Positions 12,897 to 17,845 of a stretch of DNA of 31,554 bases are shown one piece after another. The DNA comes from Bordetella parapertussis (GTDB lineage Bacteria; Pseudomonadota; Gammaproteobacteria; Burkholderiales; Burkholderiaceae_C). The stretch lies in assembly GCA_945861305.1 (NCBI GenBank), contig CAMATW010000030.1:1-31554 (forward strand), read 5' to 3'. The notes below the pieces were generated by a model, which saw nothing but the letters and a program-made list of their open reading frames with translations, searched no databases and was not told the origin of the DNA. Within the stretch, counting starts at the first letter, position 1; each line of letters begins with the position of its first letter. The position numbers were made by a program, and so were the translations under genes.

Positions 12897-13001
12897 TTTC
12901 CCTCGACGGGCCTTCCCACATGGGGAAGCGGCCAACCGGGTCAGGTGGGGAACCAAGCAGCCCTAACTGTGGAGCCAGTGCTGGGGTCAAGGCTCGTCAC
13001 C
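12897..13001 (+). ncRNA. ffs: 4.5S signal recognition particle RNA (bacterial small type)
   Basis: The SRP RNA binds Ffh and directs membrane proteins to the translocon. The apical part, GGTCAGGTGGGGAACCAAGC followed by AGCC, matches the universal Ffh-binding loop with a GGAA tetraloop. The two base pairs closing the tetraloop are GG/CC instead of the common CC/GG, a compensated swap. The basal stem GACGGGCC (12905-12912) pairs with GGCTCGTC (12991-12998) with one G-U pair. Next to it CCTTCCC pairs with GGGG and AAGG on the 3' side. Ends are approximate. It is divergent from dnaX, a neighbourhood seen in many bacteria. Its 3' half from 12931 to 12982 recurs exactly at 17773-17824. Confidence 0.88.
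12931..12982 (+). repeat. 52-bp direct repeat, left copy (inside ffs)
   Basis: Identical base for base to 17773-17824, in the same orientation, 4842 bp apart. It covers the apical loop and descending 3' arm of the SRP RNA. Beyond 12982 the two copies diverge but still align (GGGGTCAAGGCTCGTCA against TGGGGAAAGCTCGTCA). It is a candidate attL for an element inserted in ffs. Confidence 0.85.
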
Positions 13002-13445: not shown

Positions 13446-14180
13446 TTATATAAAGTTACTACCACCTTGGCTTTGAACTCCGGCAGGTGTACTTTGCGCT
13501 TTCTTGTCTAGGTCATGATTTACCCCGTTTCTAGTGACAGTGTCCCACTTAAACACCTGTCTCAAATCCGGGGCCCACTTCAGACTTGCAATTAAAAAGA
13601 ACAACAATATGCCAAATTGAATGTAGCTAACCGTCACGTGATTGTCCTTCTTAAATAGTTTTTGTGAGTTTTCTGAGGGGGTAAAAACCAAGCTTTCCTG
13701 CTCAAGTACAGTTCCATCTTTTGCTTGAAAAGTTACAGAAGCTGTTACCGCTTTATTATTTTTAACCTCATGCGCCCATAGTCCTATAGACCAATCTGTT
13801 GGCATCAATCCTTGACGCATTGCAAACTTACCAAGTACGAGGATGCTTGGTTGCTCCAGCCAAGGGGGGTGTGCGGGCTCAAAATTTACAAAGAGCCCCC
13901 CCAACACAAGCGGACCTTTTTCATCATTTAATTGAACATGCTGAACAAAGGCTTGTTGCACTTGCATTTGATGAGCCTGAAACTCGGCGAAGGAAATGGC
14001 GCCGTTGTCGTTGTCATCAAACTTTATGCCTCCAAAAGAAGATGGCGCTAGGGAAAGCACCATATAGGCTGCACCATCACGAAAATTCAAGGTAGCTCGG
14101 TCAAGCGACATGACGTGCGCGTTTACAGCTGTTTGTGTACAAAGAACGATTAGCAGCCCTATTAAAAGTACTCTAAACAT
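13446..14180 (-). CDS. Exported protein with an EF-hand-like loop, similar to the HupE/UreJ extracellular domain
   Basis: A 244-residue protein with a signal peptide (hydrophobic 3-18, likely cut after VNA at 19-21, so the mature chain starts with His22). The mature start HVMSLDRATLNFRDG is followed by a canonical calcium-loop sequence, DDNDNGAISFAE at 55-66, with D55, N57, N59, G60, I62 and E66 in the EF-hand positions. The layout His - short beta strand - Asp loop - FAEF resembles the extracellular N-terminal domain of HupE/UreJ-type membrane proteins, but their multi-helix permease part is missing. One transmembrane segment follows (VSYIQFGILLFFLIASLKW, about residues 184-202) with a cytoplasmic tail. 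It lies 39 bases after a YHYH lipoprotein gene on the same strand. The HupE resemblance is inferred from motif layout only. Confidence 0.7.
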   Translation of the reverse strand: MFRVLLIGLLIVLCTQTAVNAHVMSLDRATLNFRDGAAYMVLSLAPSSFGGIKFDDNDNGAISFAEFQAHQMQVQQAFVQHVQLNDEKGPLVLGGLFVNFEPAHPPWLEQPSILVLGKFAMRQGLMPTDWSIGLWAHEVKNNKAVTASVTFQAKDGTVLEQESLVFTPSENSQKLFKKDNHVTVSYIQFGILLFFLIASLKWAPDLRQVFKWDTVTRNGVNHDLDKKAQSTPAGVQSQGGSNFI

Positions 14181-14219
14181 TTCAGAAAACCAAGTTCGCT
14201 AAGAATTATTTGATTGCAA

Positions 14220-15239
14220 TTAATTGAGCTTACCTTTGATACAGCGTTGCAGATAGGGATAACTTTCAGTAGCTACGTAATAGTAGGTACCTTTGGGGAA
14301 ATCTGGTGTAACACCAGTGCGGCCGTTGCACTCATCCAGATCACCGCCATTTGCAGCGCTGTATGCCCAGTCTTGCCTAAATGTTCCCAATGGGAAAATA
14401 GCGGGAGAAGGCCTGAGCGTGCTATTGGTTGCAGTTGAATTTGGACTGTAATTGCTGGCTAATTTCTTGAGGGGTGAAGTGGCATCGTTGGCCATTGCAT
14501 AACCATATTTGTAATAAATTGGATAGCCATCTGATGCCCACCCCACGATTTGCATTTTATTACCAATTAAATTGTCTTCTTGCCCCCCAAGACTTGTATA
14601 AACCCCCTTAGGTGCTCCATGGTAGTGGTACTCGCCACTGGGTTGAACGTGCGCATTGTTAAAGTCTGCACCAAAATTAAATGGGCTGTTTGGCACTATT
14701 GCTTCCAAACTCCAGTCACCACCACCCAAATAGGTACAAGGTGTTCCACCAGATGCTTGGCCAGCGCCTTGAGTTGCAGTTGAAACAGCGTTATTGATGC
14801 AGCCTCCCCCAGTGTTGGGGTCAAACTTCACGCCGTTTAAAGCGTAGCCAACTACGGGAACCGGCTTAACCATATCCAGCAGTGGCGATATAGGCGCAGA
14901 AAAATTTACTGCATAAGGAGCGATGGTATTTGGATTGTTCGGATTAGGAAAAGTTCCAACGCTATGATTTGGGATACCGTTGGAAGTTAATGTTCTCATA
15001 GTGCTACCGCAAGTCCAAGCGAATTGAAAAGGCTGGCTGCTGTTGTCTGCCAATTTGGTAACCGTAGTGCCACTACCTTTGTAATTGCAAAGAATGCTAG
15101 TTGTAGCAACACCGTCCCCAATGGAAATTGGGCTTGAATTATTGGTAGAGCTACCACTACCTCCACCGCCGCAGGCTGTTAGAAAAAAGAAAATGGAACT
15201 CAAAAACCAAGTTGGTATATGGACTTCAGTACGAAACAA
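14220..15239 (-). CDS. YHYH-domain lipoprotein
   Basis: A 339-residue protein with a lipoprotein signal ending in the lipobox LTAC (Cys23), then a Gly/Ser/Asn linker. The rest matches the YHYH domain: SNGIPNHS (about 87-93), VVGYALNGVKFDP (about 129-141), EYHYHGAP (203-210), IVGWASDGYPIY, then LDECNGRTG and GTYYYVATESYPYLQRC at the end. The molecular function of YHYH proteins is not established; the conserved His and Cys suggest metal or ligand binding. The start is TTG at 15239-15237: AAGGAG sits 7-8 bases before it, no in-frame ATG exists upstream of the lipobox, and the signal peptide needs this start. It is divergent from a second YHYH gene at 15583. Confidence 0.85.
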   Translation of the reverse strand: MFRTEVHIPTWFLSSIFFFLTACGGGGSGSSTNNSSPISIGDGVATTSILCNYKGSGTTVTKLADNSSQPFQFAWTCGSTMRTLTSNGIPNHSVGTFPNPNNPNTIAPYAVNFSAPISPLLDMVKPVPVVGYALNGVKFDPNTGGGCINNAVSTATQGAGQASGGTPCTYLGGGDWSLEAIVPNSPFNFGADFNNAHVQPSGEYHYHGAPKGVYTSLGGQEDNLIGNKMQIVGWASDGYPIYYKYGYAMANDATSPLKKLASNYSPNSTATNSTLRPSPAIFPLGTFRQDWAYSAANGGDLDECNGRTGVTPDFPKGTYYYVATESYPYLQRCIKGKLN

Positions 15240-15582
15240 TTATTTTCTCCTTATAGAAAATACCATTGGATAGAAGTTTTCTTGCAAGATCAAGACCAAC
15301 CGCTATCTGCATTAATTATGCGTATAAATCACAGGTGAAGGTTTGATTTCTGCGGGTCAAGCGTGCTGTCGGCTTGAATTGATCATCAAGCGTCACTTTA
15401 CACGACAGTAGGGAGGCTAAAACAATCCACGGCAATGAAACGCGTAAAGCACGAACCGAACGGACTGAAGGTATGCGTCGGCTTCGTGTACTAAAATAAT
15501 TGGATTATGTGTTGAAGATGATGTCGTAAATCTCCCGGATGGAAATCAAATTTAATTACTAAAAAACCTATTGGAATGATTT
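15240..15582. promoter_or_regulatory. Divergent intergenic region between the two YHYH genes
   Basis: These 343 bases separate two divergent operons and must hold both promoters. I see no RNA gene and no good sigma-70 pair. Two palindromes stand out. TATTTTCT (15241-15248) and AGAAAATA (15255-15262) form a perfect 8-bp repeat over the Shine-Dalgarno site of the minus-strand gene. TTGAT-C-ATCAA lies at 15379-15389, near the middle. The segment from about 15390 to 15480 is richer in G+C than its flanks and could be older sequence, but I recognise nothing in it. Confidence 0.5.
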
Positions 15583-17142
15583 ATGAAATCTAAGAATTTG
15601 GTATTTGCTTTTATTACTAGCGTTCTAATTACATCTTTGATTGCCTGCGGGGGCAGCGGTGGAAGTGGTGGAAGCGGTGGAAGTGGCGCACAGACTTCTT
15701 CTGGTGGAACGTTTTCATTGACCAGTAGCTTAGGAACGGCACTAACTGCAGCCTTTACTTGTGATGGTGTTGGCTCATCGCCAGATCTATCTTGGTCAAA
15801 TTTGCCATCAAACACTTCTGAGCTCGCGTTACTGATGAGCACCGAGGCTCCTGGACAAACTAAGTACAACTGGATCCTTTACAACATACCTGCTGGAATC
15901 TCACTACTAAAGCGTGACTCATTCGGGGTAGGCAAGTCTGGCGTTGGTGATGATGGGGCTTATCTTGGTTACCAGACTCCCTGCTCAAGTGGTGCTGGCA
16001 TAAAAAGTTATACATTCACGCTTTATGCTTTATCTTCGCCGCCTGTAATTAATTCAAATCCAGTTACTGGGGCCGAGCTTAAATCCGCACTTGCTTCTTT
16101 AACTTTAGGCACTGCATCCCTAACAATGTCCTATAACGCTCCCGGAGCAAGTGGGAATGGACACACGTCTGCATGTGGTTACGTCCAAGAATCAACTAGG
16201 GCATCGAAGTTCGGAACCGCGTCTGTAAGTTGTGACGGTTCATTCGCCTACATAAGCTCTAATGGCATAGCAACTCACAGCATGATGGATGGAATTACCG
16301 CTACAAATCTGCAGGTCCCTGCGGCTCAAAACTTTTTAGGTCAATACGGATGGAAAATCCCACTCGCCCCAGCAATTGCAGCATCACCCACACCTGTTCT
16401 TGATGGACCCATCGGTGTAGCGATCAATGGGGTTCCTATTTTTAATCCATGCAAGCAAGGCGGCTGTACACCTCCTGGAGGTGGCGATACTAAAGTCCTC
16501 GGAGAGTTGGATAATTGCAATGGTCACGCAGGCCGTGCAGATGATTACCACTACCATGCAGCACCTACATGTTTGATGGCGGGACAAAATGCCAACTACT
16601 GGGACACCCATCCTATAGGCTGGGCCTTGGACGGATTTGCTATTTTTGGCTACAACGATCCTAACGGGACTTCCGCCTCTCGCGACGGCGTATGTGGAGG
16701 CAACACAACTTTAAATACAAATGCCCCTGCTGCATACGCTTACCATGTAACCACGAATTCTCCTTATTTAATGTCTTGCCTTCGGGGCACGCCAAGTCCG
16801 GATTTAGCTGGCCAAGGATCCAAATACAGTCCATTAAGAAAACCGCCTGTTGATCCACTTCCAACAGTTTCTTCTATGTCACTCTCAACAGACATTAAAG
16901 GTTATTCGGTTTTGCAATTTAATAGTGCTTCTTCATTCAATACTACGCCAGACAACTCTAATTCCTACAGCACAATCAATCCAGCAGGCACGTACAAAAT
17001 TCTCTATAAACAGATGATTGGGAACTCATTGACTAGTGAATTGGCAAAATCAGCTAACTCAGGAAAAACAGCTTGCTGGGAATTCATATTTCAAAATAAT
17101 GCTAACAGTAACTCGCAACCGTCTATGAACTTTTGTAAATGA
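15583..17142 (+). CDS. Lipoprotein with PEBP-like (YbhB) and YHYH domains
   Basis: A 519-residue protein. The lipobox LIAC ends at Cys22 and is followed by a Gly-Gly-Ser repeat tether (23-35). Residues about 42-186 match the bacterial phosphatidylethanolamine-binding-protein fold (YbhB/YbcL): TCDGVGSSPDLSWSNLPSNT, then YNWILYNIPAGI, GYQTPC and YTFTLYAL. Its ligand-site motifs are degenerate: the DPDAP motif reads STEAP and the HW of the family reads NW. Residues about 205-402 form a YHYH domain with SNGIATHS, IGVAINGVPIFNP, DNCNGHAG, YHYH at 322-325, PIGWALDGFAIFGY and a final YAYHVTTNSPYLMSC. The last 117 residues are unrecognised and end in Cys-Lys. Function unknown. The stop overlaps the next ATG (ATGA). 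Confidence 0.85.
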   Translation: MKSKNLVFAFITSVLITSLIACGGSGGSGGSGGSGAQTSSGGTFSLTSSLGTALTAAFTCDGVGSSPDLSWSNLPSNTSELALLMSTEAPGQTKYNWILYNIPAGISLLKRDSFGVGKSGVGDDGAYLGYQTPCSSGAGIKSYTFTLYALSSPPVINSNPVTGAELKSALASLTLGTASLTMSYNAPGASGNGHTSACGYVQESTRASKFGTASVSCDGSFAYISSNGIATHSMMDGITATNLQVPAAQNFLGQYGWKIPLAPAIAASPTPVLDGPIGVAINGVPIFNPCKQGGCTPPGGGDTKVLGELDNCNGHAGRADDYHYHAAPTCLMAGQNANYWDTHPIGWALDGFAIFGYNDPNGTSASRDGVCGGNTTLNTNAPAAYAYHVTTNSPYLMSCLRGTPSPDLAGQGSKYSPLRKPPVDPLPTVSSMSLSTDIKGYSVLQFNSASSFNTTPDNSNSYSTINPAGTYKILYKQMIGNSLTSELAKSANSGKTACWEFIFQNNANSNSQPSMNFCK

Positions 17143-17741
17143 TTCCATTAAAAATACTCATGCACCATAAGTTAGTAAAAACATCTTTCTTTGTTTTCAT
17201 CATTTTGAATATGGTGCTATTTGTTAGAGAGGCCCAGTCGCATGAACTTCAAGAAAATCGCGCAAGCCTAGTTCTAAGAAATGAACGTCAAATTAGCGTT
17301 ACTTTTTATCTGAACTTAACAGAGCTACTGCATAAGACATTGATGCCAAAACAGGATCGTTTTGAGCATACTGCCAAGCTAGCAGCAATGAGTGAGGCTG
17401 ATTTTTCAAAACAGTATGGCGATGTAAAAAAATTAATTGAATCATCTGTTCTCTTTAATGTAACTCCCGGAAAAAAGATTAATGTTAGGGAATGGCAGTG
17501 GCCAGAGCCTAAAGTAGCACAAAAAAATATACGTGAGTTGACTATGCAATCTGTTGTTAGTTCTGGTCAGCACTTTCACGAAAATCCAATTGAAGTTCGA
17601 TTGCAAATACAAAGTGATGAGTCAATCGATCCTTTAATGCTTGAGCTTCCAGTCTCTATGAAGCCCATTACCTTAGTAGCAAGTCGGCCGAAACAAACCC
17701 GGTTTGATCTTTCCGCAAAAAAAATAACCATCAATTTTTAG
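17139..17741 (+). CDS. Exported protein, partner of the PEBP-YHYH lipoprotein
   Basis: A 200-residue protein with an N-terminal signal (hydrophobic about 16-29) probably cut near AQS, so the mature chain starts HELQENRASLVLRNERQISVTF. This resembles the mature start of the 13446 protein (HVMSLDRATLNFRDG): a leading His, then RA, L and R at like spacing. The two are probably distant relatives of the same exported domain. Unlike its relative it has no EF-hand loop and no C-terminal membrane segment. No catalytic motif is visible. The ATG at 17139 overlaps the upstream stop (ATGA), which favours coupling; an in-frame ATG at 17160 would also give a signal peptide. Base composition is markedly AT-rich. 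Confidence 0.75.
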   Translation: MIPLKILMHHKLVKTSFFVFIILNMVLFVREAQSHELQENRASLVLRNERQISVTFYLNLTELLHKTLMPKQDRFEHTAKLAAMSEADFSKQYGDVKKLIESSVLFNVTPGKKINVREWQWPEPKVAQKNIRELTMQSVVSSGQHFHENPIEVRLQIQSDESIDPLMLELPVSMKPITLVASRPKQTRFDLSAKKITINF

Positions 17742-17761
17742 TCGCTGTATGACCTAAGCGC

Positions 17762-17845
17762 AAAAATGACCTGCCAACCGGGTCAGGTGGGGAACCAAGC
17801 AGCCCTAACTGTGGAGCCAGTGCTTGGGGAAAGCTCGTCATTTTT
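17762..17845 (+). pseudogene. Partial second copy of the SRP RNA gene inside a new inverted repeat
   Basis: Positions 17773-17824 repeat the 3' half of ffs exactly, and the match continues imperfectly to about 17839. The 5' arm of the RNA is absent. The fragment is enclosed by AAAAATGAC (17762-17770) and GTCATTTTT (17837-17845), a perfect 9-bp inverted repeat that would give it a new basal stem ending in a T-run. It could therefore be a dead fragment that acts as a terminator after the 17139 gene, or a short SRP-like RNA. It lies 85 bases before the catabolic operon. Confidence 0.7.

Follow-up and report, generated by a model that had tools for sequence, protein, structure and literature searches.

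The anglerases are HupE/UreJ-2 proteins whose Ang-1 domain binds copper, Cu(II), via an N-terminal histidine, and the model published for them is one of uptake (PMC12537917). Three features characterize Ang-1: an immunoglobulin-like beta-sandwich in which strands 2 and 3 are separated by three helices, a histidine at once after the signal peptide, and an attached HupE/UreJ-2 permease. ZrgA and PA4063 are periplasmic zinc proteins, and the DUF6702 metal-binding proteins (PF20420) are also His-first, in the sense that the mature chain begins with histidine. As regards the YHYH family (PF14240), the literature mentions it in phage tails or baseplates and in diatom transcripts, and a Zn site and hydrolase activity have been predicted for members from phage tails (PMC7824862). 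No established function for PF14240 was found in the literature searched, and the passages at hand make no link to anglerases or copper; the terms EF-hand, calcium and YHYH are absent from the main text of PMC12537917. Here we describe a locus of Bordetella parapertussis in which two divergent gene pairs each combine a YHYH lipoprotein with a small exported partner that is predicted to be His-first. The locus lies in a contig of 31,554 nucleotides (CAMATW010000030.1, assembly GCA_945861305.1), hereafter the window.

The two units flank a divergent intergenic region (15240-15582) in the manner described in the original prediction, and all four open reading frames are found at the places it gave. 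The YHYH gene comes first and the partner gene second in both units. Unit 1 lies on the minus strand and comprises the gene for the YHYH-1 lipoprotein (14220-15239), which carries a PF14240 domain and has a TTG start behind AAGGAG, followed after a gap of 39 bp by the gene for partner 1 (13446-14180). Unit 2, on the plus strand, comprises the gene for the YHYH-2 lipoprotein (15583-17142), which combines a PBP (PEBP) domain (residues 54-184) with a YHYH domain, and a gene for partner 2 (17139-17741) that overlaps it by 4 bp. Promoter and terminator signals were looked for in the intergenic region, and none stood above chance.

Both lipoproteins exceed the PF14240 cut-off of 25 bits (YHYH-1, 1.3e-54, 185.5 bits; YHYH-2, 1.2e-18, 68.2 bits), and both have a lipobox-like motif, LTAC at residues 20-23 of YHYH-1 and LIAC at residues 19-22 of YHYH-2. 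Their YHYH domains are only 27% identical over 272 residues, so units 1 and 2 can be regarded as old relatives; since BLASTP finds nothing significant between partner 1 and partner 2 either, the earlier claim that this is not a recent duplication holds. A histidine triad and an aspartate are retained in both proteins (H197, H205, H207 and D192 in YHYH-1; H315, H323, H325 and D310 in YHYH-2). When the family alignment is inspected, the three histidines are invariant (78/78 rows having a residue there), two aspartates are nearly invariant (76/77 and 75/75 rows), and a cysteine pair is conserved (62/65 and 62/64 rows). The conserved histidine and aspartate residues would fit the zinc site predicted in PMC7824862. 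What distinguishes the window copies from the family as otherwise described is their tie to His-first exported partners and, in one of them, fusion to a PBP domain.

That PBP domain, overlooked in the original prediction, lies N-terminal to the YHYH domain of YHYH-2 (PF01161, 4.4e-15, 56.6 bits, cut-off 24). On two Rhodobacterales plasmids (Loktanella, locus L264; Rhodobacteraceae SC52, locus L265), PEBP and YHYH are encoded by separate, adjacent genes, so the fusion is one form of a wider association. A YHYH gene read as two open reading frames, and therefore possibly interrupted, was seen in locus L005 (4209-5250); its HupE-type partner is full length.

Partner 1 is an exported protein with a predicted signal-peptide cleavage context in which VNA is followed by histidine. 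Cleavage at that point would leave His22 (codon at 14115-14117, minus strand) as the first residue of the mature chain. This histidine is invariant over 13 homologues (13/13 rows), as are Asn32, Asp55, Ser63 and Glu66. Residues 55-66 (13983-14018, minus strand), which contain the last three of these positions, were proposed to form an EF-hand loop; the loop looks good by eye, but Pfam EF-hand matches fall below the cut-off. A second, C-terminal hydrophobic helix at residues 182-200 supplies the membrane anchor that had been postulated. The PF13795 permease profile matches neither partner 1 nor partner 2.

The view of partner 1 as the outer domain of a HupE/UreJ-2 protein without the permease is borne out by its relatives. 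When YHYH-1 was used as query against genome contigs, a search that detects close relatives only, five loci came up, titled as metagenome-assembled genomes of Burkholderiales, Comamonadaceae, Rhodoferax or Comamonas, and a partner-1 homologue lies directly 3' of the YHYH gene in all five. The homologue in L005 is a full HupE/UreJ-2 protein (PF13795, 4.7e-39) and that of L074 also has the PF13795 permease, while the one in L001 is short and has one membrane helix, like that of the window. YHYH-1 also matched two plasmids, and on one of them, from Deinococcus, the same pair is found, 4 bp apart and annotated as YHYH protein and HupE/UreJ family protein. Taking all loci searched, including the window, 12 of 17 HupE-type outer domains are joined to a permease; those without it are found in the window, L001, L076, L078 and L071, the latter cut by a contig end. 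Unit 1 is likely to derive from an operon of YHYH and HupE/UreJ-2 in which the permease was lost and a membrane-anchored carrier was left. In L077, a YHYH gene stands on either side of one HupE-type gene, which suggests duplication within a unit.

Partner 2 is an exported soluble protein without any Pfam or NCBIfam match, whose predicted cleavage context, AQS followed by histidine, would make His35 (codon at 17241-17243) the first mature residue. His35, Arg47, Pro122, His145, Pro171 and Pro184 are common to all its relatives (7/7). A profile of the family matched 7 of 299 genomes of one bacterial family, in all seven cases at a YHYH gene, with at most eight candidates scored per genome. Of the seven, five had contributed rows to the profile and two (G026 and G050) were known from YHYH neighbourhoods; the informative part of this search is therefore that, among the candidates scored, the other genomes of the 299 gave no match. 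When the profile was run against 369 class-level genomes, with at most six candidates scored in each, the sole match was G1003, a genome absent from the profile rows, and there partner 2 directly follows a PBP-YHYH lipoprotein. To date, members of the partner 2 family have turned up next to YHYH genes alone, and in nearly all cases the YHYH gene is a PBP-YHYH fusion; no permease is present in any partner-2 protein examined.

The two partners appear to be related in fold. AlphaFold models of both match Ang-1 (9GCE), ZrgA and PA4063 far above all else; in the case of partner 2, 9GCE alone passes an E-value of 1e-3 in Foldseek, and ZrgA and PA4063 stand out in a second look. Sequence identity to ZrgA and PA4063 is just 6-13%, and the likeness to these zinc proteins is one of predicted fold. 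The fold predicted for the partners is that of Ang-1, an immunoglobulin-like beta-sandwich, and in the model of partner 2 strands 2 and 3 are separated by three helices, like those described for Ang-1. In both families the histidine predicted to follow the signal peptide at once is invariant. In addition, relatives of partner 1 bear the same PF13795 permease as the anglerases. The window proteins differ from Ang-1 in that both lack the attached permease and adjoin YHYH genes, and in that partner 1 has an EF-hand-like loop and a single membrane helix. Neither of them matches PF20420, which separates them from DUF6702. When the profiles of the two partner families are compared, they agree, with moderate support, over the stretch that runs from where the signal peptide ends as far as the first helices. 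The two short motifs on which the resemblance of the partners was originally based are both present in the translations, and the model matches to the same three metal-binding structures argue that the folds are not unrelated.

How often such partners accompany YHYH was examined in 64 YHYH neighbourhoods, searched with iterated profiles. PF14240 was found in 28/299 genomes of the family sample and in 28/398 genomes of the phylum sample, with G002 in both; 29 neighbourhoods come from the former and 35 from the latter, and the locus of G002 itself is L002. A HupE-type outer domain is present in 10 of the 64, all of them among the 29 family-sample loci. Partner 2 is present in 9 of the 64, including a weak case (L120, 2e-3) and a fragment whose neighbouring YHYH gene lacks PBP (L087). 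With the weak case counted, it is found in all eight PBP-YHYH neighbourhoods of the set. Neither type was detected in 40 control regions. Co-occurrence of YHYH genes with these partners outside the window, which had been anticipated, is therefore real although not universal. No single neighbourhood among the 64 combines the two types; in genome G154 both exist, about 100 kb apart (L072 and L089). The idea that the window contains the same kind of pair twice can thus be kept as regards architecture, whereas the partners belong to distinct classes. In L087, the YHYH gene and the partner-2 fragment are followed by an intradiol-dioxygenase-like protein (PF00775; 6181-6775).

A test that makes no use of profiles gave a similar picture. 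A signal-peptide-like stretch ending just before histidine was found in 16 of 55 genes located 3' of YHYH. For control genes the figure was 6 of 375 (Fisher p 2.6e-11, calculated on loci that are not phylogenetically independent). On the 5' side the figure was 1/39. Of five other residues examined on the 3' side, three (Ser, Gln, Lys) show no enrichment and two a weak one (Asp, p 0.02; Ala, p 0.006). The 16 neighbours fall into four classes: partner 2 (6), HupE-type Ang domains (5), short Cys-containing proteins (4) and DUF6702 (1), the last directly behind the YHYH gene of L132. The short exported, His-first, Cys-containing proteins follow YHYH at L127 (4575-4913), L129 (4505-4876), L131 (4578-4940) and L133 (4451-4777), and that of L129 has no Pfam or NCBIfam match. 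Another small His-containing protein, probably exported, lies beside YHYH at L118 (5895-6404), L121 (4158-4685), L125 (5688-6197) and L264 (8421-8897, assigned to this group by eye); no convincing family match was obtained for those of L118 and L121.

The order of the genes, their domains and conserved residues, the repeated occurrence of the pairs and the matches of the models are direct observations, and we infer from them a role of the YHYH-partner units in metal handling. Our reading, to which we give a probability of about 0.5, is that the locus encodes two envelope modules, each made of a YHYH lipoprotein and a partner predicted to be His-first and to fold like Ang-1, ZrgA and PA4063, and that they handle copper or a transition metal like it. 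The partner would likely capture the ion and hand it on to the YHYH protein, at the site predicted from its three His and the Asp, a step that supposes contact between the two and transfer in this direction; the carrier would be membrane-anchored in unit 1 and soluble in unit 2. Copper would be the first candidate, with nickel or zinc second. A pair of carrier and client is suggested by the constancy of YHYH, whose partners differ in class and may or may not have a permease. Because different His-first proteins follow YHYH across genomes, the task of the partner is likely to serve YHYH rather than the permease. As for location, the system was first described as one of the cell surface: the proteins are indeed predicted to be exported, but two predicted lipoproteins, one membrane-anchored protein and one soluble protein are better read as components of the envelope.

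Several observations weigh against this reading. Under the strict criterion, a His-first neighbour is missing from 39 of the 55 loci that have a gene 3' of YHYH. A HupE-type partner was found in none of the 35 phylum-sample loci, using a profile built on Burkholderiales-type sequences, and a Pacificitalea plasmid (L012) matched by YHYH-1 has no HupE gene beside YHYH. HupE/UreJ-2 is common without YHYH, as 168 of the 299 family genomes have the former and 28 the latter. Support from the comparison of the partner-family profiles is moderate (probability 52, E 1.5e-4), and the metal could be zinc given that ZrgA and PA4063 are zinc proteins. The response regulators of five partner-2-type loci (L084, L087, L089, L092 and L093) have the heavy-metal subfamily cztR_silR_copR as best match, with 205-219 bits, below the NCBIfam curated cut-off of 279; those of L120, L126 and L127 have BaeR as best match, also below cut-off. 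Over all YHYH loci, response regulators are found in 17/64 compared with 7/40 controls (p 0.34, not significant), and SCO1 in 4/64 compared with 0/40 (p 0.30, not significant).

A bolder version, which we put forward tentatively, is that the YHYH family represents a new class of metalloenzymes of the envelope, in the boldest form copper enzymes, loaded by several dedicated His-first carriers, and that anglerase domains freed of their permeases became such carriers. If the proposal of paired carrier and YHYH protein is true, the YHYH family gains a concrete metal hypothesis that makes its role testable, anglerase-type domains are shown to occur without a permease, and the rule "YHYH gene, then signal peptide plus histidine" becomes a means to find further candidate metal carriers.

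Metal uptake as described for anglerases is a possible but less probable explanation, in which the His-first domain would feed a permease and YHYH would be a further collector; the permease serving the window proteins would then be encoded elsewhere in the genome. The published model is one of uptake (PMC12537917), and the 12 HupE-type outer domains that keep their permease beside YHYH, such as those of L005 and L074, fit it. Pairing with YHYH persists, however, where the permease is missing, as occurs in the window, L001, L076 and L078 and in all partner-2 proteins examined.

We consider it rather unlikely that the two proteins act as sponges in the envelope, produced under copper or heavy-metal stress, and thereby confer tolerance. 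Response regulators do occur in 6 of the 8 PBP-YHYH neighbourhoods compared with 7 of 40 controls (p 0.003, in a subgroup chosen after the fact), and the five regulators nearest the heavy-metal subfamily point in the same direction. Kinases are found in 17/64 YHYH loci and 3/40 controls (p 0.02), those of L084 and L092 having cztS_silS_copS as best match (250-259 bits, cut-off 293). Partner 2 has a large LTXXQ-like protein as its neighbour in L086 (6397-7755; 24.7 bits, cut-off 24.3) and L092 (6528-7859; 23.4 bits, below it), and a homologue of these, also beside partner 2, is found in L089 (2616-4265). Against tolerance, the regulator matches are under the cut-off, neither an efflux pump nor a regulator was recognised within the four-gene block, the resistance-nodulation-division-type pump at about 2.1-6.6 kb being outside it, and the conserved residues of YHYH would fit a specific site better than a sponge. 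Least probable is that YHYH is a zinc-dependent envelope hydrolase, as PMC7824862 predicts for phage tails and as the conserved His and Asp residues would allow, with the His-first gene as a merely co-inherited neighbour: His-first genes are enriched 3' and not 5' of YHYH, far beyond the other residues tested and in four partner classes.

The four genes form a block of low GC content (0.40-0.47, compared with 0.50-0.58 in most of the window; the stretch at 29.5-31.5 kb is also low) enclosed by two copies of the signal recognition particle (SRP) RNA gene, which the original prediction had not noted. The left boundary is an intact copy (RF00169; 12905-13001, plus strand; Rfam 54.7 bits, gathering threshold 40) and the right one a damaged copy (17750-17834, plus strand; 34.5 bits, under that threshold). 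They share a direct repeat of 61 nucleotides with 95% identity (12931-12991 and 17773-17833). The block thus combines foreign base composition with a flanking repeat of part of an RNA gene, as expected of islands inserted at RNA genes. No integrase was recognised by eye among open reading frames of at least 60 amino acids between the SRP RNA copies, the Pfam run being on the four genes only. In our reading, the block is an old genomic island whose integration site is the SRP RNA gene, a kind of site of which the literature searched, as far as available, contains no evident report. In 20 relatives, a single SRP RNA gene (found by a core pattern in 16 and by Rfam in the other 4) lies beside dnaX, in stretches of 1.7 to 12.1 kb.
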